Of a DNA stretch of 32,776 nt, positions 2,987-32,776 are shown piece after piece. Under the pieces are notes generated by a model, which had not been told where the DNA came from, made no database searches, and saw only the letters and a program-made list of their open reading frames with translations. This DNA comes from a virus, in the IMG/VR virus record IMGVR_UViG_3300033144_006702, positions 1 to 32,776 of that record; one strand, given 5' to 3'. Every line of letters starts with the position of its first letter. The stretch's first letter is position 1. The position numbers and the translations under genes were made by a program.

Positions 2987-5567
2987 TAAACGCAAAACCT
3001 TTAAAACTATCAAACAAAATTTGGCGCCTTGTGTTAAAGGATTTCTTGAGGCGATCACCGATGTGGAGTTAACTGATACCTTTGGAGAGGATGCAACCCG
3101 CGATCAAATTAATAAATGGGGCAAAGCTCAGATTCATTCGATGGCCCAACAAATTTATAACGCTACAATTAGGGGCGAAGATGCGTCCGTGGTCGCGTTC
3201 AGGGTGAGAGAGCAGTTTAAAAAAAGTCATTATGAATGGTTTAAAAAGCACAAAAGTAATACGTTGCGTAGTTATCTTGCTCAAAATGAATTAATCGGGA
3301 AAGCTAAACAATTAAAATATAACATGCGTAGTTTAACGTCAGCCATATTTTCAAATCAATTTCATGGACAATTAGAAAACACCAAAGGCGCTATTCCAAC
3401 TATAGCTAAGGCTATGTCTGATAGATTATGGGGTAAATTTAATGAAGATATGCAGGAAGCTGCTAAAAATCTTAAAATAGAACTGCCTGAGCTGACCACC
3501 TATTTAATTGAACCTGCAAAATTAGCGCAAGTATTTGATGCTTATCGCGCCAAATTAGATAACAAAAGTCCTGAAGCTACGGTAGCTCGGATTATTCGTT
3601 CTTTTAATGACGACACCCTCAAATTATTAAGAAGCCACGGAATAATAATCAAAGATTTAGAGGAATTCTTCTTTACTAGTCAGAGGCATAACATTGAAAA
3701 GATGCAGAATCCCACTCCAGAATTATGGACGGAGATATTAGGCAAGAATAAAGAAGAAATGACGGAAGCAGAACGTTATCAAGCCACCAAAAAAATCTAT
3801 GCTAAATTTACGGAGCCTTTGTTAGATTGGGACAGATCGTTTTTGGATGATAAAAAAGACACGGTAAATGAGCGTTTAGGAATACTAGAACGCACTTACG
3901 ATAACATTATTGCCGATAAAGCCGAGTTGGGGCGCCCTAAATATGCGACTGCTGAAACTTTCGCGTCTTATGTGCAAGGGTTAAAAAGACAAATCCATTT
4001 TAAAGATGGGGAATCTTGGGCTAAGTATAATGAACACATGGGGATTGATAATTTAGGCAATCATTTGAAAAGAGTTGCTACTAATGCCGGAGAAAATGCA
4101 GCGGTATTTTCAGTATTTGGTCCTAAACCCCAGCGTGTATTTAATGCGTTATTGAAAGAATTACAAGCAAATTTACCCAAAACCACTAAAACCAATAAAG
4201 ACCTACAAGACTTTAAAGATTGGTTTAAATATTTTACCGAAAACACTAGCACCGTCCCGGACATGACCACCTCACGCGTCTTGAATATATTGAAAGCCAT
4301 TCCTAATTTACAGATATTGGGAACGTTGGGTTTAAAGTCTTTGCCTGATTCTTGGACTATGTATAGCTATTTAAAAAGTGAAAATTTCGCCAATGCTGGC
4401 CGCGATACGTTAGAAGCATTAGGCCAATTCTTTAACTCCAGTGCGCGGGCTAAAAACGAAGACTTGCTTAAGATGTTTGGTATGGCTCATGAAAGTTTTG
4501 TTAGTGCTTTGGGCGAGGTATCAGCTTCCACCAGCACTAATTTTGGGGCGCGAGGGCAGTGGGTGGCCAAGACGTTAGCTTATGTAGAATCCAAAGGTAA
4601 AATTGGAATTTGGGATGAGATAATGACGTTAGCTGTTACATCGAGCTGGTCCAAGCGGTTGCGTAGTTTAGCGGAAACTCCTCATGACCAATTGCCGGCG
4701 GAGGTAAAAAATTTATTTACTCAATTCAATATCACCCCGGCTGAGTGGGAGGGAGTGCGAAATTATAAAGCCGCTCATCAAGACATGCACGGTCAATCGT
4801 ATTATGCTCCTTGGGAAATTATGAAAATGCCGTTAGCTGAGCTGGGCAAGATATATAAATTACCCGCCACAAGTAAAATAACTTTAGAACGAGCGCGGAA
4901 TAGTTTGGTGTTGAAGCTGAACTCTGCCATGAAGTACCAAGCTAACTATGTAGTTCCTAGAGAAAATGCACCAATGGGATTAGCTTATGCTCGTCATCGT
5001 GAAGCTGCTTATCGTTCTGGAAGTGCTTATTACATTATGTGGGAATTAATGGCTCAATATAAAAACTGGGCATTTAACTTTTCTTCGTTAGCCTTGGGTA
5101 GGATTAAGGACGGCAATGGAACTTTGATGACAAAATTCGCCAGAGGTGCTCATTTGTTAGTAGGGTTGGGAGCAGTTACCACCTTCATTGACTATATGAT
5201 GGGAGTTGCTGGTAATCAGGTATCGAGGTTTTATGACCCGAATAAGCCAGTGCTGTCGATTGGGGAAGAATTGGCTAAGAATACAATTCGTTCAGCAGGT
5301 GCGTTTGGAGTTCTATTGCAATTAGTAGATGGATTTTATGGAGGAGGCAGTAACTTAGCAGCTGCTGGTTCAATCACTAGGTTAGCGCGTAATGTTTATC
5401 ATCTGGGAGTTCCCAAGCGCGGTGATAGTTATTCGGATTCGTTAAGTAATTTATTGGGGAATGGGGCGGCGGTGACGATGCCAACGTATATGGCGTATAA
5501 TTGGTTTATAGCTCCGTTATTAAACGATCATAATCGTAAAAAAGAATTAATTAATATATATAGTTAG
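2979..5567 (+). CDS. Internal virion / ejection protein (862 aa), gp16-like position
   Basis: The longest late gene after the fusion across the ends, starting with GTG at 2979. The start is supported by GGAGG about six bases upstream and overlaps the previous stop by 8 bases. The protein is mostly helical and charged. Near the C-terminus (about residues 725-755) there is a Gly/Ala/Leu-rich hydrophobic segment, then a second weaker one, compatible with membrane insertion during genome delivery. It occupies the place of T7 gene 16, between the other internal proteins and the tail fibre, and is shorter than T7 gp16. No transglycosylase signature was seen at its N-terminus, unlike T7 gp16. Assignment is by position, size and composition. 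Confidence 0.72.
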   Translation: MANKRKTFKTIKQNLAPCVKGFLEAITDVELTDTFGEDATRDQINKWGKAQIHSMAQQIYNATIRGEDASVVAFRVREQFKKSHYEWFKKHKSNTLRSYLAQNELIGKAKQLKYNMRSLTSAIFSNQFHGQLENTKGAIPTIAKAMSDRLWGKFNEDMQEAAKNLKIELPELTTYLIEPAKLAQVFDAYRAKLDNKSPEATVARIIRSFNDDTLKLLRSHGIIIKDLEEFFFTSQRHNIEKMQNPTPELWTEILGKNKEEMTEAERYQATKKIYAKFTEPLLDWDRSFLDDKKDTVNERLGILERTYDNIIADKAELGRPKYATAETFASYVQGLKRQIHFKDGESWAKYNEHMGIDNLGNHLKRVATNAGENAAVFSVFGPKPQRVFNALLKELQANLPKTTKTNKDLQDFKDWFKYFTENTSTVPDMTTSRVLNILKAIPNLQILGTLGLKSLPDSWTMYSYLKSENFANAGRDTLEALGQFFNSSARAKNEDLLKMFGMAHESFVSALGEVSASTSTNFGARGQWVAKTLAYVESKGKIGIWDEIMTLAVTSSWSKRLRSLAETPHDQLPAEVKNLFTQFNITPAEWEGVRNYKAAHQDMHGQSYYAPWEIMKMPLAELGKIYKLPATSKITLERARNSLVLKLNSAMKYQANYVVPRENAPMGLAYARHREAAYRSGSAYYIMWELMAQYKNWAFNFSSLALGRIKDGNGTLMTKFARGAHLLVGLGAVTTFIDYMMGVAGNQVSRFYDPNKPVLSIGEELAKNTIRSAGAFGVLLQLVDGFYGGGSNLAAAGSITRLARNVYHLGVPKRGDSYSDSLSNLLGNGAAVTMPTYMAYNWFIAPLLNDHNRKKELINIYS

Positions 5568-5576
5568 GGGAAGATA

Positions 5577-7070
5577 ATGGCAATTCCAGAATTCGCATAT
5601 ACTCAAACAGTCGCTAAACAATTAATGGCCAACGCCACAGGTGTGAGCGCATGGGTAATGTTTATTAATGTTAAGAGCGATATCACTGTATATAAGCAAA
5701 TCGCATCAAATCAGCAAGTTGAGCTTATCCCTGAAGCAGATTATACGGTCACTATTACTCCAGCAAGTCCTTGGGAATTCACTTGGACCTATTCAGGAGC
5801 TACTCCTCCCCTAAATGCAGATCACATCATCATCTTCCGGCGCGTGGGTGCTATCTTTAACGATTTCCAACCCGGTGCATTTTTAAACGCCGATTCTTTA
5901 AACCAGGCATTTAATATTGAAACCTTAGCCAATAATGACGTGGGCTATTATCAGCAATTTTCTCGGCCTGGGTACGATGACAAGACATTGGTTGAAAAGG
6001 GCGTTTTTGACCCACCCGTCAGCGTTGGGGAAAGTGATCATAACCCAAAAATTGCCGAGAGTAATTATGAGTTGCCTTATTTAGCTTCTTCTCCAGGAGT
6101 TGCTGCTGGGGATGTATATGTGTGGGGATATGTAGTTGACCCTGGTCCGGTGGCTAGTCCCCGTACTGGGAAATTTGTCGATACCTTGCTGCATCAGTCA
6201 GGCGGGGGCACCGTTGGTCAATTAACGCAAGAATTAGCTGCCGAATGTCTGGTTCCTGGTAGTAATATTATTGGGGTGTGTAACACTACTATTGCAGCTG
6301 CGGGATGGACTCCTGGTCCTGGGATGACATTGTCGGCATATTTAGGAAATTTGTATCATCGAAGTAATACTAATGCTGAAAATGGCGCTAATTTAATTGG
6401 TTATAATCGCGATACTGCCCCTCATACTGGGCAATATTCAGTTCAAACGTTTCTTAATAATTTAGCCGACAAAGGTACTCCAGGCAATTACGCATCAGAC
6501 AGTGGTGCATCTTATATTGGTTACGAGGGCTGGTCAGTAAGTAATAACACAGTTGCGGGATGTTTGAGTAGATTAAATGAGCCGGCTACATCGGCGGCTG
6601 ATTCGGGAGCTACTCATGTTAAGTTTTGGGATATTTCCCCTACCGTGCCTGTGTCTAAGTCTGTTCAGGAGGGGTTGAATGAGTTATGGCAGGCTATTCA
6701 CAATTCTGAACAGCCTATTAATGTGGTTGTTACTATCCCTAACTATACGGCCGGGCTGTCTCCTACCGTTATTCCAATTCCTCCAGGCCCCGCTACGCTG
6801 TTTGCTAATTTAAATCGCCTCCATATACGAACACAGTACAGCAACTTCATCATCCATAATGAAATAGCTCTGGCCGGCACAACCGTGCTGGATTGGCATT
6901 ATGGTCAGTGGCAGACAGCAACGGATTTTCTGCAGATGCAGCTGGACCGAACGGCAGCAGCCACCCCGGTATGGACCACGAAAATCCAGAGTGCGTCAGG
7001 AATGGTGACTCCTACCTTCCCGGCTCAAATCACTTTTTCTTTTTTCTTAAAAGGGGCGGTGCCACCTTAA
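5577..7070 (+). CDS. Tail fibre protein, T7-like N-terminus (497 aa)
   Basis: The N-terminal ~150 residues follow the pattern of T7-like tail fibre virion-binding domains: a short strand-rich domain with aromatic and Asp/Thr turns (residues 30-75), then a segment of the type 'IIFRRVG…FNDFQPGAFLNADSLNQAFN' (about 85-120), in which the conserved Phe, Ala, Asn-Ala-Asp-x-Leu-Asn spacing is typical. The rest is Gly/Asn/Thr-rich with repeating short beta motifs ('ASYIGYEGW', 'ANLIGYNRD'), suggesting a trimeric beta fibre that binds the host surface. The stop overlaps the next start by one base (TAATG). The start ATG has AGGGGAAG upstream. Receptor unknown. Confidence 0.85.
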   Translation: MAIPEFAYTQTVAKQLMANATGVSAWVMFINVKSDITVYKQIASNQQVELIPEADYTVTITPASPWEFTWTYSGATPPLNADHIIIFRRVGAIFNDFQPGAFLNADSLNQAFNIETLANNDVGYYQQFSRPGYDDKTLVEKGVFDPPVSVGESDHNPKIAESNYELPYLASSPGVAAGDVYVWGYVVDPGPVASPRTGKFVDTLLHQSGGGTVGQLTQELAAECLVPGSNIIGVCNTTIAAAGWTPGPGMTLSAYLGNLYHRSNTNAENGANLIGYNRDTAPHTGQYSVQTFLNNLADKGTPGNYASDSGASYIGYEGWSVSNNTVAGCLSRLNEPATSAADSGATHVKFWDISPTVPVSKSVQEGLNELWQAIHNSEQPINVVVTIPNYTAGLSPTVIPIPPGPATLFANLNRLHIRTQYSNFIIHNEIALAGTTVLDWHYGQWQTATDFLQMQLDRTAAATPVWTTKIQSASGMVTPTFPAQITFSFFLKGAVPP

Positions 7071-10072: not shown

Positions 10073-10376
10073 AATCCTCTGCCACGTGCTCAAACAGCGC
10101 CTGTTCACATAGTACAAAAAATTCTGCTTGTAGATGAGTCACAATTTCTGGTTTGATAATGGTCACTTCTACATCCCATGTGCTTAAAAACTCTAATAAG
10201 TTGGAGCGAAAGGCCGTCAGATAATTGGAGGGTTCTACTAAGAGATCATCAAAATAATCTGGATTATCTGCCAAAAAAGTTGAATACGCCACGGCTCTAG
10301 CAAGGGGAGAAAGCTCATCAAAATCTTCATTGGCTGATGATGCAAGTTCGCGTAGATGATTGAGGTACTCCGACAT
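10050..10376 (-). CDS. Hypothetical protein, first gene of recombination operon (108 aa)
   Basis: An acidic, helical protein starting at ATG 10376. It overlaps the exonuclease gene by 23 bases and is the promoter-proximal gene of the exonuclease/annealing operon. No motif recognised. Position suggests an early accessory role in recombination, for example a nuclease modulator or single-strand-binding helper, but nothing in the sequence shows this. The start lies only about 30 bases downstream of a candidate minus-strand -10 box and lacks a strong Shine-Dalgarno sequence. Confidence 0.75.
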   Translation of the reverse strand: MSEYLNHLRELASSANEDFDELSPLARAVAYSTFLADNPDYFDDLLVEPSNYLTAFRSNLLEFLSTWDVEVTIIKPEIVTHLQAEFFVLCEQALFEHVAEDYERIRQN

Positions 10377-10383
10377 AACCAGC

Positions 10384-10411
10384 TTGACAATTAAATCTTA
10401 GTGGTTATCAT
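10384..10411 (+). promoter_or_regulatory. Candidate sigma70 promoter for replication initiator gene
   Basis: TTGACA at 10384-10389 is a perfect -35. TATCAT at 10406-10411 follows with 16-bp spacing (ATCATA with 17 is also possible). It would give a leader of roughly 135 nt containing two hairpins before the initiator start at 10555. Confidence 0.6.
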
Positions 10412-10436
10412 ACGGCAATAAGACAAAGGGACGCAA
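10407..10436 (-). promoter_or_regulatory. Candidate divergent promoter for recombination operon
   Basis: On the minus strand TTGCGT (10436-10431) and TATGAT (10412-10407) are 18 bp apart. The -10 physically overlaps that of the opposite-strand initiator promoter, so the two promoters would compete for RNA polymerase. Confidence 0.45.
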
Positions 10437-10496
10437 ACGCGCCCCCCAGCGAAATTAAGGAACAACAAGCTTTGGTCGGCTTTCCTAAATTTCTCG

Positions 10497-10554
10497 CTAC
10501 AAACGGAGAATGTAGGGCTACCAAGGATTAGAAAGTAGCTACAAAGGAATGTAG
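10497..10554 (+). promoter_or_regulatory. Twin GGA-loop hairpins, CsrA/RsmA-like translational operator
   Basis: Two stem-loops share the same stem CTACA/TGTAG. The first is 10497-10515 with loop AACGGAGAA. The second is 10539-10554 with loop AAGGAA, and its 3' arm ends immediately before the ATG at 10555. The loop GGA of the second is the ribosome binding site itself. This closely resembles the known CsrA target form (UACA-rGGA-UGU with GGA in a hairpin loop). The GGAs are about 41 nt apart, a distance a CsrA dimer could bridge. CsrA binding is inference; the hairpins are seen directly. Confidence 0.55.
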
Positions 10555-11304
10555 ATGAAGCAAGAATACCAGGTTAAAAATTGTAGTCAAGCTTTTCAAC
10601 TCAAGAACGAGTTAAAAAATTCCCCTTACAAACTTTACTCACCCACTTATCCACATTTGAGGGACTTATATCCACAGATTTCGATAAATGCTTACGACCT
10701 TTACATCGAAATGTTGAAATATCCCACCAAAACCAAAGGTGGCTATTTTACGGTAGCTGAAAATTACTGGCGCAAAACCTGTAGCTTTACTCATCGAGCC
10801 TTTTTAAATGCTCGTGCTGAATTACAAACTCATGAGGCCATTAAAACTAGCCAACATGGATTTAATCACCCCCCTACTTATCGCTTGCGTGCTTGGTTGC
10901 ATGAAGTTAAATCTTACCTCATGATCCCGCTGCCTGTTGTTGACTACTTGGGTGCGCTCTTAGAACATAAGCTCTTAAACAGACCCACCCGCTATCTGTA
11001 TTTTCATTTGTACGGTGTGGCTTTTAAGGCAGACTTCCCCGAAAGTATTTTTTTAGACGTTGCTGACGTTGCCAAATCATTGGGTCATCCCCCCCGTACT
11101 TTGCGAGGATTAACAGCAAAATTAAAAGCCTTAGATTTACTTCAAGTAAAAGCCGCCAAAACTTGCCACTCTCCCTCAGAATTTTTTATTTCAGTTCCTG
11201 CTGTGAAATATCCAGCTCGTGAAAATCGCGCTGAAATCCAAATTGCGACTAATTCTCACCAGAGTTCTGCTATGGCTGCAATCAAAGCGCGGCTTGGAAT
11301 CTAG
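10555..11304 (+). CDS. Putative iteron-type replication initiator (249 aa)
   Basis: I do not recognise a named family with certainty. The protein is about the size of plasmid Rep proteins and appears to have two helix-rich winged-helix-like modules: about residues 40-110 (ISINAYDLYIEML…FTVAENYWRKTC…HRAFLNARAEL) and about 130-210 (…TRYLYFHLYGVAF…VADVAKSLGHPPRTLRGLTAKLKALDLLQV). The strongest support is context: the stop is followed within 30 bases by a DnaA box, three iterons and an AT-rich inverted repeat. A DnaA box also lies inside the 5' end of the gene. Translation start ATG 10555 directly abuts a hairpin carrying the ribosome site. A helix-turn-helix transcription regulator is the main alternative. 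Confidence 0.65.
   Translation: MKQEYQVKNCSQAFQLKNELKNSPYKLYSPTYPHLRDLYPQISINAYDLYIEMLKYPTKTKGGYFTVAENYWRKTCSFTHRAFLNARAELQTHEAIKTSQHGFNHPPTYRLRAWLHEVKSYLMIPLPVVDYLGALLEHKLLNRPTRYLYFHLYGVAFKADFPESIFLDVADVAKSLGHPPRTLRGLTAKLKALDLLQVKAAKTCHSPSEFFISVPAVKYPARENRAEIQIATNSHQSSAMAAIKARLGI
10647..10655 (+). promoter_or_regulatory. DnaA box (exact TTATCCACA) inside initiator gene
   Basis: An exact consensus DnaA box. A degenerate relative (TATATCCACA) follows at about 10668-10677. Being inside the initiator coding sequence, it could assist replication or affect rep transcription. Confidence 0.5.
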
Positions 11305-11334: not shown

Positions 11335-11343
11335 TGTGGATAA
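11335..11343 (-). promoter_or_regulatory. DnaA box next to iterons
   Basis: TGTGGATAA, the exact complement of TTATCCACA, 13 bases before the first iteron. Iteron plasmid origins commonly place a DnaA box next to the iteron array. Confidence 0.75.
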
Positions 11344-11355
11344 GTATCGAGCTAA

Positions 11356-11431
11356 GCGCGGCCAAATCTGCACTACCAACCCCTGCACGCGGCCAAATGT
11401 GCACTACTGCACGCGGCCAAATGTGCACTAC
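11356..11431 (+). repeat. Three iterons (putative Rep-binding direct repeats)
   Basis: Three copies of a 20-bp unit CGCGGCCAAAT-n-TGCACTAC (n = c, g, g) at 11357-11376, 11388-11407 and 11412-11431. Copies 2 and 3 are identical over 23-24 bases; copy 1 differs at one internal base and in its left flank. Start-to-start spacings are 31 and 24 bp, i.e. roughly three and slightly over two helical turns. Downstream of a Rep-like gene, these are best read as initiator-binding iterons. Confidence 0.85.
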
Positions 11432-11462
11432 TTATATAATATAACAAATATTATATATAATA
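11432..11462. other. AT-rich putative DNA unwinding element with perfect inverted repeat
   Basis: Thirty-one bases with a single C and no G directly after the last iteron. It contains a perfect 10-bp inverted repeat (TATATAATAT at 11433-11442, ATATTATATA at 11448-11457) around a 5-base loop. This is the expected melting region of an iteron origin. The whole stretch 11305-11548 has no credible gene. Confidence 0.65.
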
Positions 11463-11521
11463 GAACCTCGACCGCTTTTTTTGAAGCTGTACAAATTATG
11501 AACACCTCTACAAAAATCAGA

Positions 11522-11548: not shown

Positions 11549-12580
11549 CTATTTTTCTGCATGCGGACAAGTCAGCAGCTTCGTATCTTTACCTCCTGAT
11601 GCTTTAACTCTATCCCAGCCACGATAATAAAAATTCACTTTGCCATTATTAATTCTAGTCTCTCCATTCTCAAACAACGCACCAACGACGTTGAAAGTAA
11701 CTGTGCACTTCGCTATTTCACCTGTATTGAGAATGACGTAGGAATTAGGACTAGCTGCATAACAGACATAACAACCCTGATTCTGAGCTTCGCGGGTGGG
11801 TTTCTTTTGTTCTTTAGGGATTACGTATTTCTTTAAATTTTCTACAATAGTTTCTTCTTCTCCCCACCCCAAGACTTTCATATCTTTCACACTCTCGCCG
11901 CCATAGTCTCCAACTGGCTTTAAATCCACGTGAAATCGCTTATCCACTAAGAATGTATCTCTGATGTAGATTAAAAACGCTGCCATATTCTTTATGTTTT
12001 TGGGGTGGATATGAATCCTGAGCTGTATTGAGAACTGATGTGACGACTCTTTGGCTATAAGTAGGTTAGTCATGATTTTCTTATAACTACCTTTGCCACC
12101 GACCCCAATCCGTGTTTTGTTATGGTCTTCTTCAGCACCGTCTAAAGAAACTTGGAATTCATTTAATCCCATCGCACAATATTTGGAGAGCATCTTTTCA
12201 TTTACTGCTGTGTAATTTGTAGTTGCGTGTCCTGTTATTTTTTTTATTCCGAGCGAGTTTGCGTGATTATGAATTTCTTCAATTATCTTGGGTTCAAGTA
12301 ATGGTTCTCCTCCGAACCAGGATATGATTAAGAACTTTAAACCGTCGCGGTGAAGGTAAGTGATTAGATTTTTAATTCCGTTGATATGCGGCCTACTTAA
12401 GGGCTTCATATGGGCAGGTATGTAGTTTGTTTTGGTTGCGAAGTTGTTGCGGTTAACTTCGATGTGGTCTTCATAGCAATATACGCACGATAAATTACAG
12501 TTGCCTGTGGGTAAGATGGTTAGTCTGAAAAATTCGCGTGAAAATGCCTGGACCACCTGTTGTGGTTGAATTGGTAACAT
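11549..12580 (-). CDS. Radical SAM protein with twitch/SPASM-type C-terminus; probable peptide maturase (343 aa)
   Basis: The radical SAM cluster is C28-x3-C32-x2-C35 (CNLSCVYC), followed by the usual FGGEPLL motif (GGEP) that binds the SAM amino group. The C-terminus has C273-x13-G287-x4-C292 and a final C338, matching the twitch pattern CX9-15GX4C-gap-C that holds one auxiliary Fe-S cluster in peptide-modifying enzymes. C270 is an extra cysteine in the same segment. Family members install thioether, C-C or related bonds on ribosomal peptides, or oxidise Cys/Ser in sulfatases. No sulfatase is encoded here, and the two genes just upstream encode small exported proteins with CX4C motifs. ATG 12580 has AAGGAAAAAT upstream; the longer frame to 12658 lacks a site and overlaps the previous gene. 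Confidence 0.85.
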   Translation of the reverse strand: MLPIQPQQVVQAFSREFFRLTILPTGNCNLSCVYCYEDHIEVNRNNFATKTNYIPAHMKPLSRPHINGIKNLITYLHRDGLKFLIISWFGGEPLLEPKIIEEIHNHANSLGIKKITGHATTNYTAVNEKMLSKYCAMGLNEFQVSLDGAEEDHNKTRIGVGGKGSYKKIMTNLLIAKESSHQFSIQLRIHIHPKNIKNMAAFLIYIRDTFLVDKRFHVDLKPVGDYGGESVKDMKVLGWGEEETIVENLKKYVIPKEQKKPTREAQNQGCYVCYAASPNSYVILNTGEIAKCTVTFNVVGALFENGETRINNGKVNFYYRGWDRVKASGGKDTKLLTCPHAEK

Positions 12581-12602
12581 AATTTTTCCTTGGTTGTTAA
12601 GA

Positions 12603-12624
12603 TGAGGGAGCGAGCGCCCCCTCA
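12603..12624 (-). promoter_or_regulatory. Intercistronic hairpin between peptide gene and radical SAM gene
   Basis: The minus-strand RNA forms a 9-bp stem TGAGGGGGC/GCTCCCTCA (one G-U pair) with a 4-base loop. No U-run follows, so it is more likely a 3' stabiliser or attenuating structure than a full terminator. It could raise precursor expression over enzyme. Confidence 0.55.
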
Positions 12625-12633
12625 GTGATTTAA

Positions 12634-12927
12634 TTATACTTGATTGGCATCGAAACAACTGATGTTATTACAACCGGCATTGGCGCTGGGATCGAACAGC
12701 TCATACGCGGTGTCTTGCTGAACGAAACTTGCATCGGTAGGGACGGGGTCACAAATTGTGTTTGAACACCCGCTATTACAACCATCCGCTCCATTATCGA
12801 TGCCACTAATACATGGCAAGCTTACATCTTGTATCTGTCCATGAGTATCGGTACTCATCGCATGTGATGCTGGAATTAGGTTGAATAAAGTTGTTAAAGT
12901 TAATGCTGCTAATTTAGTATTTTTCAT
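12634..12927 (-). CDS. Small exported Cys-rich protein, candidate radical-SAM substrate (97 aa)
   Basis: Begins MKNTK, then a hydrophobic core (residues 6-18) and a probable signal-peptidase site after ASHA-type residue 23. The mature part (~74 aa) is acidic, with six cysteines: C39, C50, C54, C59, C86 and C91. Two related motifs stand out: SGC-SNTI-CDP (54-59) and AGC-NNIS-CFD (86-91), both CX4C with Asn at the second or first inner position and an acidic residue just after. The gene lies 53 bases upstream of the radical SAM gene and has TAGGAAATATT before ATG 12927. Size, cysteine pattern and neighbour suggest a RiPP-type precursor. A disulfide-bonded secreted peptide is the alternative. 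Confidence 0.7.
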   Translation of the reverse strand: MKNTKLAALTLTTLFNLIPASHAMSTDTHGQIQDVSLPCISGIDNGADGCNSGCSNTICDPVPTDASFVQQDTAYELFDPSANAGCNNISCFDANQV

Positions 12928-12942
12928 AATATTTCCTATTTA

Positions 12943-13392
12943 TTAATTAATTGTTACTGGGCATGGTTTAATATCACACAAGACAGCGCCCATGACTGTT
13001 GTGTTATTGAGGTTAATATTTACTCGCCCATTCCCGTTGTTATGGATTAGTAAGTTCCCCCCAATCTGACTGTGATTAAATGTGGAATTGGCTGTAGTGA
13101 GATCTACATCGCTCACAAATACCGTTTCCGTGGCTTCAATCGACCCTACTTGGCGCGCTGAAGTTATTGTGGTGTTTTTAATTGTGGTTGAACCCAGATT
13201 ATCTAAGCGCCCAATCGTTGAATTTAAGACTGTGGCTGGCCCAGTCCATGTTAATGTCATCAAATGTTTATCTTTAATGGCAATTATTCCGGTGCCTTCT
13301 AAGGCATGACTGGGTGTTTGCCATACCGCGGCTGCCACCAGAACTACGGTAGCTGCGTTGTAAAGCGAGCTTAACTTATCAACCATACTCAT
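12943..13392 (-). CDS. Exported beta-repeat protein with C-terminal CX4C (149 aa)
   Basis: A Sec signal peptide is clear: positively charged start, hydrophobic NAATVVLVAAAVW (12-24), and probable cleavage after SHA at residue 30. The mature chain is Thr/Asn/Ile-rich with short recurring strands (STIGRLDNLGS, TTIKNTTITSA, STFNHSQIGGN, VNINLNNTTV), typical of a right-handed beta-helix or bactofilin-like fold. Its only two cysteines, C139 and C144, form a CX4C near the C-terminus, like the motifs of the downstream peptide. ATG 13392 has AGAGGAG about nine bases upstream and overlaps the preceding stop (ATGA). The gap to the next gene is 15 bases. The function is unknown; either a scaffold or a second substrate is possible. 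Confidence 0.72.
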   Translation of the reverse strand: MSMVDKLSSLYNAATVVLVAAAVWQTPSHALEGTGIIAIKDKHLMTLTWTGPATVLNSTIGRLDNLGSTTIKNTTITSARQVGSIEATETVFVSDVDLTTANSTFNHSQIGGNLLIHNNGNGRVNINLNNTTVMGAVLCDIKPCPVTIN

Positions 13393-13413
13393 GATCCGTT
13401 CTCCTCTGATTGT
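13389..13413 (+). repeat. Copy 1 of 25-bp repeat (RBS plus C-terminal tail)
   Basis: This matches 13556-13580 at 24 of 25 positions. On the minus strand it encodes QSEEN-G-S, the ribosome binding site of the next gene, and the overlapping ATGA. Confidence 0.85.
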
Positions 13414-13559
13414 CTTTCTGGGCATTTCAACACGCCGCCCCAATAAGCAGGATCCATTTGCCGGCCCCACTTTTCAATGAATTTATCGAGGCGTTTTTGG
13501 CGTAAATAGTGTTCTTCAGGGCTGTTTAGCTCTGGGGTGAAGTGAGTTGTTGTTTTCAT
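13389..13559 (-). CDS. Small hypothetical protein (56 aa)
   Basis: A short gene with ATG at 13559 overlapping the preceding stop as ATGA, GGAG upstream, and its own stop overlapping the next start as ATGA. The product starts MKTTTHF, is charged (…EEHYLRQKRLDKFIEKWGRQ…) and contains a single Cys. It ends in QSEENGS, nearly the same tail as the upstream gene (QSEENAS). No motif recognised. The double ATGA coupling and good ribosome site argue that it is translated. Confidence 0.7.
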   Translation of the reverse strand: MKTTTHFTPELNSPEEHYLRQKRLDKFIEKWGRQMDPAYWGGVLKCPERQSEENGS

Positions 13560-14266: not shown

Positions 14267-14953
14267 CTAAGTCTCGGCTTCTGTCATTTTGATTTTACGC
14301 ACTAGCTTCATTGCTTCTTGATATACAGCGTCCGTTTGAGACGCGATATGGTCTGAAGTGAGCGATAGGTAATATAACTGCATGGTAGGATGAGTAAGAG
14401 CATGACGATAAATATAATCTCTGGTTGTATTGTTAAGTTTTGCGGTTACGGTGACTGATTCACCATTCCGCAATGCCTTGATACAATTCAATGCCAAAAG
14501 ACAGTTCTTCGCCGGGCGCCCTTGTCTCGTTTGATTGACCTTACCTACACTCGCTGCCAATTTTTCTAATGAGTAAGTATTCAAAAATTCGCCGATGTAA
14601 TTTATCTGCGTGTCTACTGGACACTCTGTTAAGGCAGTATTTAAGCCTTCTTTAACACTTCTTAAGTGAGTGTTATGGTCTCGAAAAAACATTAATCCAC
14701 GTTTGATTTCCTTGATGCTAGTGAACAGTCTACTGAGATCGTAAATGTAGATTGTATGTTTCATTTCCTCAACTTTCTCCAGAAGATTCAAAGATTGCAA
14801 TCTGACACTTATTGCCTGTCTGATCAACCGGCGTTTGTCGCTGTGGATAACTTCAACTTCATCACCAACCTCTGATTGAATAGCTCTGAGTTGATTGTCC
14901 ACATCCCATGACGCCATTGGTATTGAGGACTGTCTGATTAATGCAATGTTCAT
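14267..14953 (-). CDS. Serine-recombinase/resolvase-like protein, possibly degenerate (228 aa)
   Basis: The N-terminus reads ALIRQSS followed by DNQLRAI (residues 4-25), recalling the resolvase pattern with Arg7 and catalytic Ser9 or Ser10. A second block, IYDLSRLFTS…LMFFRDHNTHLRSVKEGLNT (69-106), matches the resolvase helix with Arg75 but has Thr where the second conserved Arg of 'DRLGR' is expected. The C-terminus has GRP (145-147) and a helix-turn-helix (about 153-184, ending YIYRHAL), as in DNA invertases and resolvases. It may resolve multimers of the plasmid form or act only as a DNA-binding regulator. ATG 14953 follows CAAGGAGAGACA. Confidence 0.65.
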   Translation of the reverse strand: MNIALIRQSSIPMASWDVDNQLRAIQSEVGDEVEVIHSDKRRLIRQAISVRLQSLNLLEKVEEMKHTIYIYDLSRLFTSIKEIKRGLMFFRDHNTHLRSVKEGLNTALTECPVDTQINYIGEFLNTYSLEKLAASVGKVNQTRQGRPAKNCLLALNCIKALRNGESVTVTAKLNNTTRDYIYRHALTHPTMQLYYLSLTSDHIASQTDAVYQEAMKLVRKIKMTEAET

Positions 14954-22974: not shown

Positions 22975-23383
22975 AGCAAAAAAAACACTAGCAGCATCTG
23001 TTAATAAAACACCTCCTTTACCTAAGATTGAAAAGGATTTATATGAGCGGGCTGTCGAGTATCTCGAATCAGTAGAAGGTAATACAGCTATGCCCTGGTT
23101 CCATTTAAAAGGAGCCAAGGCCAAAAGCAAAAACACTTATCCTGATTTCTTTATCGCGCAGTGGAATCGTAATGCTTACGGTGGCTTATTTGTGCATTTA
23201 GATCCTAATAAAAAAACACTAACCGCGAGCGAAAAAAAATGGGTTACTAAATTTCGTGAGAAAGGTTATGCGTGTGTTACTGTCTCTAAAATGCAGGAGT
23301 TAAAAATATTAATCAATGATTATTATGTGGCTCATGGTCAATCAGGAAAACAATATTTCAACAACCGCTGGGAACGCACCTAA
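22967..23383 (+). CDS. VRR-NUC-like protein with altered catalytic residues (138 aa)
   Basis: The chosen start is TTG 22967, overlapping the scaffold stop, with GGGGAG seven bases upstream; ATG 22910 is a longer alternative inside the scaffold gene. The fold signature of VRR-NUC nucleases is present: N-terminal helix, YPDFFIA with Asp60, 'YGGLFVHLDP', a 'TASEKKWVTKFREKGYACVTVSKMQELKILINDYY' tail. However, the expected catalytic E-x-K is replaced by His77-Leu-Asp79, and the usual Gln of the following helix is Lys. It is therefore probably an inactive or structurally repurposed nuclease. The stop overlaps the next start (TAATG). Confidence 0.65.
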   Translation: MVKAKKTLAASVNKTPPLPKIEKDLYERAVEYLESVEGNTAMPWFHLKGAKAKSKNTYPDFFIAQWNRNAYGGLFVHLDPNKKTLTASEKKWVTKFREKGYACVTVSKMQELKILINDYYVAHGQSGKQYFNNRWERT

Positions 23384-23583
23384 TGAAAGGCACTGTAAAA
23401 TGGTTTTCGTCCGCAAAAGGATTTGGGTTTTTAGTATCTGATGAAGTAGACAAGGATGTCTATGTTCATTTTAGTGATATCAAAATGACGGGATTTAAAA
23501 CCTTAAATGTAGATCAAACGGTAGAGTTTGACTTAGCCGTAACTCCTAAGGGATATGCGGCCAAAGAGGTTCTTGTTCCTTAG
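23383..23583 (+). CDS. csp: Cold-shock domain protein (66 aa)
   Basis: A full-length CspA-family OB-fold protein. It starts MKGTVKWFSSAKGFGFL with RNP1 (KGFGFL, 12-17) and RNP2 as DVYVHFS (25-31; Tyr for the common Phe), ending AAKEVLVP. These bind single-stranded RNA or DNA and can unfold mRNA. It lies between the degenerate nuclease and the capsid gene, inside the late operon, with TAATG coupling to the previous stop. That suggests high late expression, perhaps aiding translation of structured late mRNA such as the capsid leader. Confidence 0.93.
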   Translation: MKGTVKWFSSAKGFGFLVSDEVDKDVYVHFSDIKMTGFKTLNVDQTVEFDLAVTPKGYAAKEVLVP

Positions 23584-31213: not shown

Positions 31214-32776
31214 ATGGTAACTGCAAAATATACAGAAAGCACCCCAATCCAACCAGTTGATTTCACAGCGGCAGCCGGGGCCGGTGCTGAAGGATGGGCC
31301 AAGTTATTTGCAACTACTGAGAACTTAGCATATCAAAAAGGCCAACAGTTAGCGGACGCTCAAGCTGCCCAAAATGGGGTGGAGAATGTTGCTAAGTATG
31401 GATTAGGGGCACCTTATCCAGATAGCTCCTCAGAAGCAGCTCAACATTATAAGCAAGCTGTAGACCGTAGCCAGGCTACGTTATTGCAAAATCAAATCAA
31501 CAGCAAAGGTAATGAGTTATTCCAAGAAACCGCTGCCCAAGGATTTAATCCACAAACTTCTGAGGAATTTAATAATAAATGGACTGCATGGACCAAAGCT
31601 ACATTAGATGAATTGCCCCAACATCAAAAGGCTATGGGTGTGCAATTAATGGGAGCTGTGGGCAATCATTATGGGATGCAGGTCGCTACTCAAGTTAGCA
31701 AACAGTTATTGCAAGATAAAAAATTACAATCAGATTTAGCTATTCAAGAACAAGGCCAACATGCGGTTAATTATTTTTACCAAGGTGGCCAATTTACCAA
31801 TCCGAAAATGTTATTAGGCGATCAAAGTTTATTAAGTTCCTTAAAAGATAATATCTTAAATGCCCCCGGAACGGCCCTGCAACGTGAAGCTAAACTGAGA
31901 AATTATCAAGAAAATATTTTACAAGCCAATGTTACAGGGAGTTTGCAATGGTTACAGCAGGCGCAGGTCAAAGCTCTTCAGGAAACTAATCCTGAAAAAC
32001 GCGCAGAAAAGCTAGCGATAGTGAAAAAAGAATACAATCAAATCCAATCTAATCCTGAGAAATGGGTAAAAGGGAAAATTGAACAAAGCGATTTTTTTGA
32101 AGGGGTTAATCCCCAGGAGGGCCTAACTGCTTTAAACACCTTTAAAAATAATATGACGCTAGGGTTAGCCCAACAATCCCAACAAGCCACGGATACTTAT
32201 GATAAGTTAACTCTTCAAATTAAGAACGGCAATATCCCTACTCAAGCTGAGTTAAACGAATATGTAAACCAGGCCCCTTATGATAAAAAAGGAGTTGAGC
32301 GCGTAAAATTATTAAATCAGGGTATTGCTACTGTTAAAGATATATTTAGTGAAATTGCCACACCTGGCGCGCTGGATGCTATGCTCACCAAAGCTAATAC
32401 AGGCACCTATGGTGATTCTAAACATACGAATGCCATAGCTAAACCATTGCTGCCAGCCGCTTACGGGGCCTTTATATATAACCGCTCTTCATTAACTAAA
32501 CAAACCCAAGCCAAAGCGTACGCTCAGTTAAGAGCCTCTCCCGAACAGGTTCAGTTAGTAGAGGGATTTGCGGGCAGTCCTGACATGTTAACTAAAATTG
32601 CGAGCGGGCAAAATCCCCTAAATCTAGCCCAAGATAAAATTGCTAATCAGTATTATTCTGGCTCGAAAAACTTACAACGCTTAAGTGGAATCCCTGAGCC
32701 TTTAGTAAGCACGTATACAAATGAGCAATATAAAAGTTTGAATACCTATTTACAGAGTTTAACTCCCTCCGCAAGG
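31214..32776 (+). CDS. Internal virion protein, N-terminal part (continues at base 1)
   Basis: The gene begins at ATG 31214, two bases after the gp14-like stop (TAAATATGG), with AATGGTGAATAAAT upstream, a weak ribosome site that suggests coupling. It stays open to the end of the window and resumes at base 1, giving about 807 aa in total. It is hydrophilic and Gln/Ala/Asn-rich, with long helical stretches. Position corresponds to T7 gp15. The window's last 114 bases duplicate its first 114 and must be counted once. Confidence 0.85.
   Translation, partial: MVTAKYTESTPIQPVDFTAAAGAGAEGWAKLFATTENLAYQKGQQLADAQAAQNGVENVAKYGLGAPYPDSSSEAAQHYKQAVDRSQATLLQNQINSKGNELFQETAAQGFNPQTSEEFNNKWTAWTKATLDELPQHQKAMGVQLMGAVGNHYGMQVATQVSKQLLQDKKLQSDLAIQEQGQHAVNYFYQGGQFTNPKMLLGDQSLLSSLKDNILNAPGTALQREAKLRNYQENILQANVTGSLQWLQQAQVKALQETNPEKRAEKLAIVKKEYNQIQSNPEKWVKGKIEQSDFFEGVNPQEGLTALNTFKNNMTLGLAQQSQQATDTYDKLTLQIKNGNIPTQAELNEYVNQAPYDKKGVERVKLLNQGIATVKDIFSEIATPGALDAMLTKANTGTYGDSKHTNAIAKPLLPAAYGAFIYNRSSLTKQTQAKAYAQLRASPEQVQLVEGFAGSPDMLTKIASGQNPLNLAQDKIANQYYSGSKNLQRLSGIPEPLVSTYTNEQYKSLNTYLQSLTPSAR
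32663..32776. repeat. Right copy of 114-bp terminal direct repeat
   Basis: This copy is identical to 1-114 and shows that the sequence closes on itself; see the left copy. Confidence 0.95.

Follow-up and report, generated by a model that had tools for sequence, protein, structure and literature searches.

How is synthesis of the replication protein controlled at the rep locus of the virus recorded as IMGVR_UViG_3300033144_006702 in IMG/VR? The stretch analysed here, hereafter the window, was this record of 32,776 bases, in which rep is preceded by a leader with several hairpins. The initial annotation had assigned the leader of this replication gene to translational control of the CsrA/RsmA type. 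Control at the start of rep translation was indeed found to be likely because the start lies in a conserved hairpin, but the identification of CsrA/RsmA as the regulator went unsupported. On balance, we favour a counter-transcribed RNA, about 95-140 nt long and predicted from the sequence, that would mask the Shine-Dalgarno (SD) site and start codon of rep and thereby set phage copy number.

The only relative detected was L001, another phage and part of a 34.8-kb viral contig. It carries two tandem rep copies, at 2167-2898 (55-56% identity to the window Rep) and at 3001-3753 (71%), each of them with a promoter and leader of its own, and therefore three leaders could be compared. All three have a promoter on the plus strand, a GC hairpin, a hairpin of the form GAAATT..AAATTTC whose apex varies and, immediately before the ATG, an SD hairpin, CTACA(A)-loop-(T)TGTAG. 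The elements in and around the window leader were as follows:

10384 to 10411, plus strand: predicted sigma-70 promoter of rep (TTGACA, 16 nt, TATCAT), 11/12 consensus matches.
10420 to 10556, minus strand: proposed counter-transcribed RNA, about 137 nt in the window and about 97 nt per L001 leader.
10428 to 10445, minus strand: GC hairpin, proposed antisense terminator (GGGGCGC-GTTT-GCGTCCC, then TTTGTCTT), kept in the three leaders.
10451 to 10493, no strand assigned: hairpin II, with 12-nt arms (10451-10462 and 10482-10493) that are 92% complementary.
10497 to 10515, plus strand: first hairpin, CTACA-AACGGAGAA-TGTAG, with CGGAG in its loop.
10518 to 10538, plus strand: third, partial copy of the SD-hairpin unit, CTACC-AAGGATTAGAAA-GTAG, read from the sequence and found in the window only, with no L001 counterpart.
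10539 to 10554, plus strand: SD hairpin, CTACA-AAGGAA-TGTAG, with the SD AAGGA at 10544-10548; it abuts the ATG at 10555.
10555 to 11304, plus strand: rep, predicted replication initiator of 249 amino acids, followed by a DnaA box, iterons and an AT-rich stretch.
10563 to 10590, minus strand: predicted antisense promoter in rep codons 3-12 (TTGACT, 16 nt, TG-extended TATTCT).

In support of the antisense RNA, face-to-face sigma-70-like promoters were found in all three leaders. The rep promoter was kept in both L001 leaders with 11/12 and 10/12 consensus matches. On the opposite strand, the putative antisense promoter had identical hexamers, spacer length and TG in the three leaders, with 9/12 consensus matches plus the extended -10, and its expected RNA start, near 10556, fell at the rep AUG in each of them. 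An opposite-strand promoter in or near the rep leader, by which an antisense-controlled replicon may be recognised, was thus predicted three times. When the synonymous codons were randomised with the protein kept fixed, such a minus-strand site appeared in 17, 8 and 12% of cases; the joint chance of having it in all three leaders was 0.2% if these are independent, a figure that overstates the case because the leaders are related.

The two strands of the leader were also compared for folding. The z-scores against shuffled sequences were -2.7, -3.8 and -4.2 for the minus strand of the three leaders, versus -1.0, -2.8 and -1.4 for the plus strand. Furthermore, pairs that are G-U in the minus-strand RNA but A-C in the plus-strand RNA were counted at three positions, of which one is in the GC hairpin and the other two are in hairpin II of L001 copy 2; the reverse case was counted nowhere, and the GC hairpin paired fully in the minus-strand RNA only. 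Such strand-specific pairs were few in number, yet all of them favoured the minus strand. The minus-strand promoter-like site together with the terminator-like hairpin would fit antisense-RNA control better than CsrA.

These results also bear on a simpler explanation, according to which a plain SD hairpin tunes basal initiation with no trans-acting regulator and the minus-strand elements are incidental. The stem adjoining the start codon is kept in the three leaders, it is weak (5-6 bp), and promoter-like sites arise by chance at 0.9 per 450 nt; however, the strand-specific fold stability and the common minus-strand promoter-like site would be left unexplained, and we regard this explanation as improbable.

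In the antisense mechanism that we propose, the leader hairpins would be parts of a copy-control element. The promoter within the first rep codons would give a minus-strand RNA running from the rep AUG across the entire leader with its SD, up to a proposed end at the GC hairpin (near 10428-10445). This counter-transcript would pair with the rep mRNA, the probable first contact being between the loop AAGGAA of the mRNA SD hairpin and UUCCUU of the antisense RNA, and the pairing would block ribosome access. A rise in genome copies would then raise the antisense RNA and lower Rep, and the iterons would contribute specificity for the origin and, perhaps, handcuffing. Hairpin II, whose stem was kept in the three leaders while its apex differed, has the form that may be expected where loops determine antisense specificity.

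The initial annotation had called rep a replication gene, and its product is very probably a replication initiator, since the origin elements lie 3′ of rep and their layout is kept in L001. The elements found in the window were these:

10647 to 10655, plus strand: DnaA box TTATCCACA inside rep, exact match.
11335 to 11343, minus strand: DnaA box TTATCCACA 3′ of rep, exact match; L001 has the same box.
11355 to 11431, plus strand: three iterons CACGCGGCCAAATGTGCACTAC, starting at 11355, 11386 and 11410.
11430 to 11466, no strand assigned: AT-rich stretch, the probable unwinding region (83% A+T across 11430-11470), with a counterpart in L001.

The window iterons were spaced 31 and 24 nt apart. 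L001 repeated the order of DnaA box, repeats (two, with 24-nt spacing) and AT-rich stretch, so that tandem iterons, a DnaA box and an AT-rich region linked to rep, the marks of an iteron-type replicon, were found in both phages. The repeat sequence itself differed, as co-evolution of Rep with its iterons would predict. Rep is thus probably an iteron-type initiator, and the locus, with promoter, leader, rep and iteron origin, would be a replicon of the plasmid type in a small, podovirus-like phage. Among the Rep sequences, a weak MarR_2 winged-helix match was obtained in two of the three members (best E 7.6e-4), and no initiator family was found among PDB sequences. In L001, rep and its leader are duplicated in tandem and the copies have diverged; a single iteron origin was seen, 3′ of the second copy.

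A different use for the minus-strand promoter has to be considered, since the genes that run leftward from the leader need a promoter:

10376 to 8596, minus strand: leftward operon of a small protein, a YqaJ exonuclease and an Erf annealing protein.

The promoter at 10590-10563 might mainly drive this operon, with its 5′ leader antisense to rep by happenstance, in an excludon-like arrangement of overlapping divergent transcripts. A scan of 10300-10750 gave this single minus-strand promoter-like site, and read-through of the GC hairpin is plausible because its U-tract is poor. Nevertheless, L001 copy 2 keeps the promoter though its transcript would enter rep copy 1 and not the operon directly, a weak minus-strand TATGAT lies closer to the operon, and the conserved compact fold resembles a stand-alone RNA; we therefore consider such an arrangement unlikely.

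The hairpins on which the CsrA proposal was built were then weighed. Both of them, with identical CTACA/TGTAG stems and GGA in their loops, were present at 10497-10515 and 10539-10554. The loop AAGGAA of the second was confirmed to be the SD site, with its stem touching the ATG at 10555, and the gap given as about 41 nt measured 41 nt from GGA to GGA. The motif CTACA-N3..9-TGTAG was expected 0.1 times per window and occurred at least twice in 1 of 100 shuffles, a test that uses the stem already seen. A looser and fairer test asked whether two hairpins that have the same 5-bp stem, whatever its sequence, and GGA in their loops occur within 100 nt of each other on the same strand. Of 200 dinucleotide-shuffled windows, 21 gave such a pair; this makes the hairpin pair alone weak evidence. 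In partition-function calculations, the pairing of the SD hairpin was about 0.5-0.99 and that of the first hairpin about 0.2 or less, and the first hairpin was missing from the minimum free energy structure.

The first hairpin was absent from both L001 leaders, and the suggestion that a CsrA dimer bridges the two sites was rejected; a bridge that needs the first hairpin, present in the window only, is not conserved, and the L001 leaders gave no conserved second site upstream. As for the stems that related phages had been expected to conserve, that of the SD hairpin was invariant in the three leaders, but its loop varied in size (6, 10 and 5 nt) and the first hairpin was confined to the window.

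Host CsrA/RsmA might still bind the SD hairpin, whether alone or together with the first one, and repress Rep translation. In passages of PMC7652899, the CsrA consensus from systematic evolution of ligands by exponential enrichment is given as RUACARGGAUGU with an ANGGAN hexaloop, and CsrA bridging to the SD is described as real in glgC. The segment UACA-AAGGA(A)-UGU of the SD hairpin comes close to this consensus, much as the initial annotation had noted, and the loop AAGGAA fits ANGGAN; in L001 copy 2, CUACAAAGGAUGUAG equals the core consensus plus one extra A. The GGA in a hairpin loop over the SD is kept in the L001 leaders, but it is expected for any SD in a hairpin loop, and the ANGGA match, which is confounded with the SD, has little weight because any SD resembles ANGGA. 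Within the L001 leaders the SD was the sole ANGGA in a hairpin loop, the other one (AGGGA) being at the stem of the GC hairpin, and the varying loop gave no constant ANGGAN hexaloop. With a chance level of about 10% for the hairpin pair, the first hairpin lost from both L001 leaders and no csrA in either phage record (window and L001), regulation by CsrA/RsmA appears very unlikely. The phage leader resembles CsrA/RsmA-repressed leaders such as that of glgC in its hairpin-loop GGA, SD site and upstream hairpin, but the upstream site of the phage is not conserved.

It had also been suggested that a phage-encoded repressor recognises the hairpin sequences. Iteron initiators often autoregulate via inverted repeats, and a phage repressor or Rep itself might bind the CTACA..TGTAG inverted repeats as a double-stranded DNA operator, given that they sit between the promoter and the start codon. 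This alternative is disfavoured because the arm spacing varies: it was 5, 6 and 12 nt across the three leaders, hardly tolerable for a fixed dimer, and no iteron-like match was obtained in the leader within 6 mismatches. We see scarcely any likelihood of a DNA operator here; the invariant SD stem with loops of 5-10 nt would be more in line with a hairpin in RNA than with a protein operator of fixed spacing.

Some further features of the leader were observed. Three CTAC..GTAG units stand in a row at 10497-10554, the first holding its own GGAG and ATG-TAG, and the first hairpin and the third unit look like a local multiplication of the SD-hairpin unit. An AUG-UAG start-stop lies directly 5′ of the rep AUG at 10549-10557 (AATGTAGATG); it was present in L001 copy 2 and not in copy 1. 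Leader-peptide coupling was rejected, as three-frame translations of the window leader and of L001 copy 2 gave no conserved leader open reading frame. No known RNA family was found above the gathering score in Rfam.

Several observations weigh against control by an antisense RNA. The coding stretch that holds the minus-strand promoter is itself conserved, and the synonymous excess there (8/9, 11/12 and 7/8 codons against about 67% elsewhere) was suggestive and not significant. The U-tract of the terminator is weak and interrupted, and the window version passed the terminator scan whereas the L001 versions did not. The comparison had one relative only, hence three leaders of which two are tandem copies in the same genome. 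Rep itself had no match to a known initiator family in Pfam, PHROGs or NCBIfam, and its AlphaFold model from the three sequences had a predicted local distance difference test score of 39.5 and was not used. Iteron replicons, moreover, are usually under iteron control and not under that of an antisense RNA. Searches for further relatives gave no Rep homologue in phages or plasmids (tblastn) or in genome contigs, and L001 only in viral contigs; DNA-pattern searches returned L001 and unrelated matches only, and the YqaJ and terminase searches gave the same viral record only, or no match in genome contigs.

The closest published layout found was that of the REx-C modules of Pseudomonas replicons. 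As described in passages of PMC5304414, these modules (RepA-PFP, RepJ) have a short leader with three stem-loops, a putative antisense promoter in SaL 3 and a terminator in SaL 1; loop changes determine incompatibility, and in some modules there is no leader peptide and rep lies near the last stem-loop. The phage locus, compared by layout alone, has three stem-loops, a predicted rep-proximal antisense promoter and a rep-distal stem-loop proposed as terminator, but its antisense promoter would lie inside the rep codons. The same source describes in ColE2 an antisense RNA (RNAI) that is complementary to the rep mRNA 5′ untranslated region and gives post-transcriptional Rep control, as proposed here; in ColE2, however, Rep is a primase and the origin is tiny, whereas iterons and a DnaA box mark the phage origin, and the phage Rep has no ColE2 family match. 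In pMV158, RNAII likewise inhibits translation of the initiator gene repB (passages of PMC4485353), but this is a rolling-circle replicon with a CopG repressor and a different Rep. The pSK41-type RepA_N replicons combine antisense RNAI with a winged-helix initiator, but in these the origin lies within rep, and RNAI targets a site about 100 nt 5′ of where translation starts (passages of PMC5703833).

According to passages of PMC5304414, plasmid replicons are usually described as being under either iteron or antisense RNA control. Mycobacterial prophages that are extrachromosomal, with origins that are RepA or RNA-based, replicate via a plasmid-type origin, as is proposed for the present phage, and the antisense-plus-iteron combination is not reported for them in the passages of PMC7157519 covered. 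A partial literature search found no description of antisense rep control with an iteron origin in a phage with an unclassified initiator. Antisense rep control and iteron origins are each well known; if the antisense RNA is real, what would be new is that a phage whose initiator is unclassified unites the two, with a tandem duplicate in the relative.

The window encodes portal/head-tail adaptor, terminase, podovirus-type tail, Erf and YqaJ proteins, and because of this gene content it was taken for a small podovirus-like phage. Its distant kin were Methylophilales phage MEP301 and Vibrio and Pelagibacter phages, with portal identity of at most about 30% among the matches listed. A DNA polymerase, helicase or primase was not found in the window proteins scanned. 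The ends of the window are identical over 114 nt (1-114 = 32663-32776), so the record is probably a complete genome, and this suggests terminal redundancy or circular closure.

Beside the origin, a radical SAM peptide-maturase-like gene, a gene for a small secreted Cys-containing peptide and one for a second secreted protein lie on the minus strand at 11549-13470; the same maturase-like/secreted peptide gene group occurs in L001 at 4016-6106, so that it adjoins the origin in both phages. Its NCBIfam matches were far under the equivalog cut-offs, and it is possibly a phage-borne cluster for a ribosomally synthesized and post-translationally modified peptide. A small serine recombinase-like protein is encoded at 14267-14953 on the minus strand (Pfam Resolvase, E 5.7e-5) and could resolve multimers of a plasmid-like prophage. 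The translation of a small open reading frame at 23383-23583 resembles a cold-shock protein (MKGTVKWFSSAKGFGFL...), as judged by eye only.

More tentatively, it is possible that copy number in this phage lineage is set by a cis-encoded antisense RNA from the initiator's own start codon, together with an iteron origin and an unclassified initiator family, and that the sister phage, with its tandem rep-plus-antisense unit and diverged loops, has two antisense specificities per genome. If the proposed control is true, antisense copy control would be extended to phages possibly maintained as plasmids, and the locus would offer a compact minireplicon in which to test how new compatibility types arise when loops diverge.
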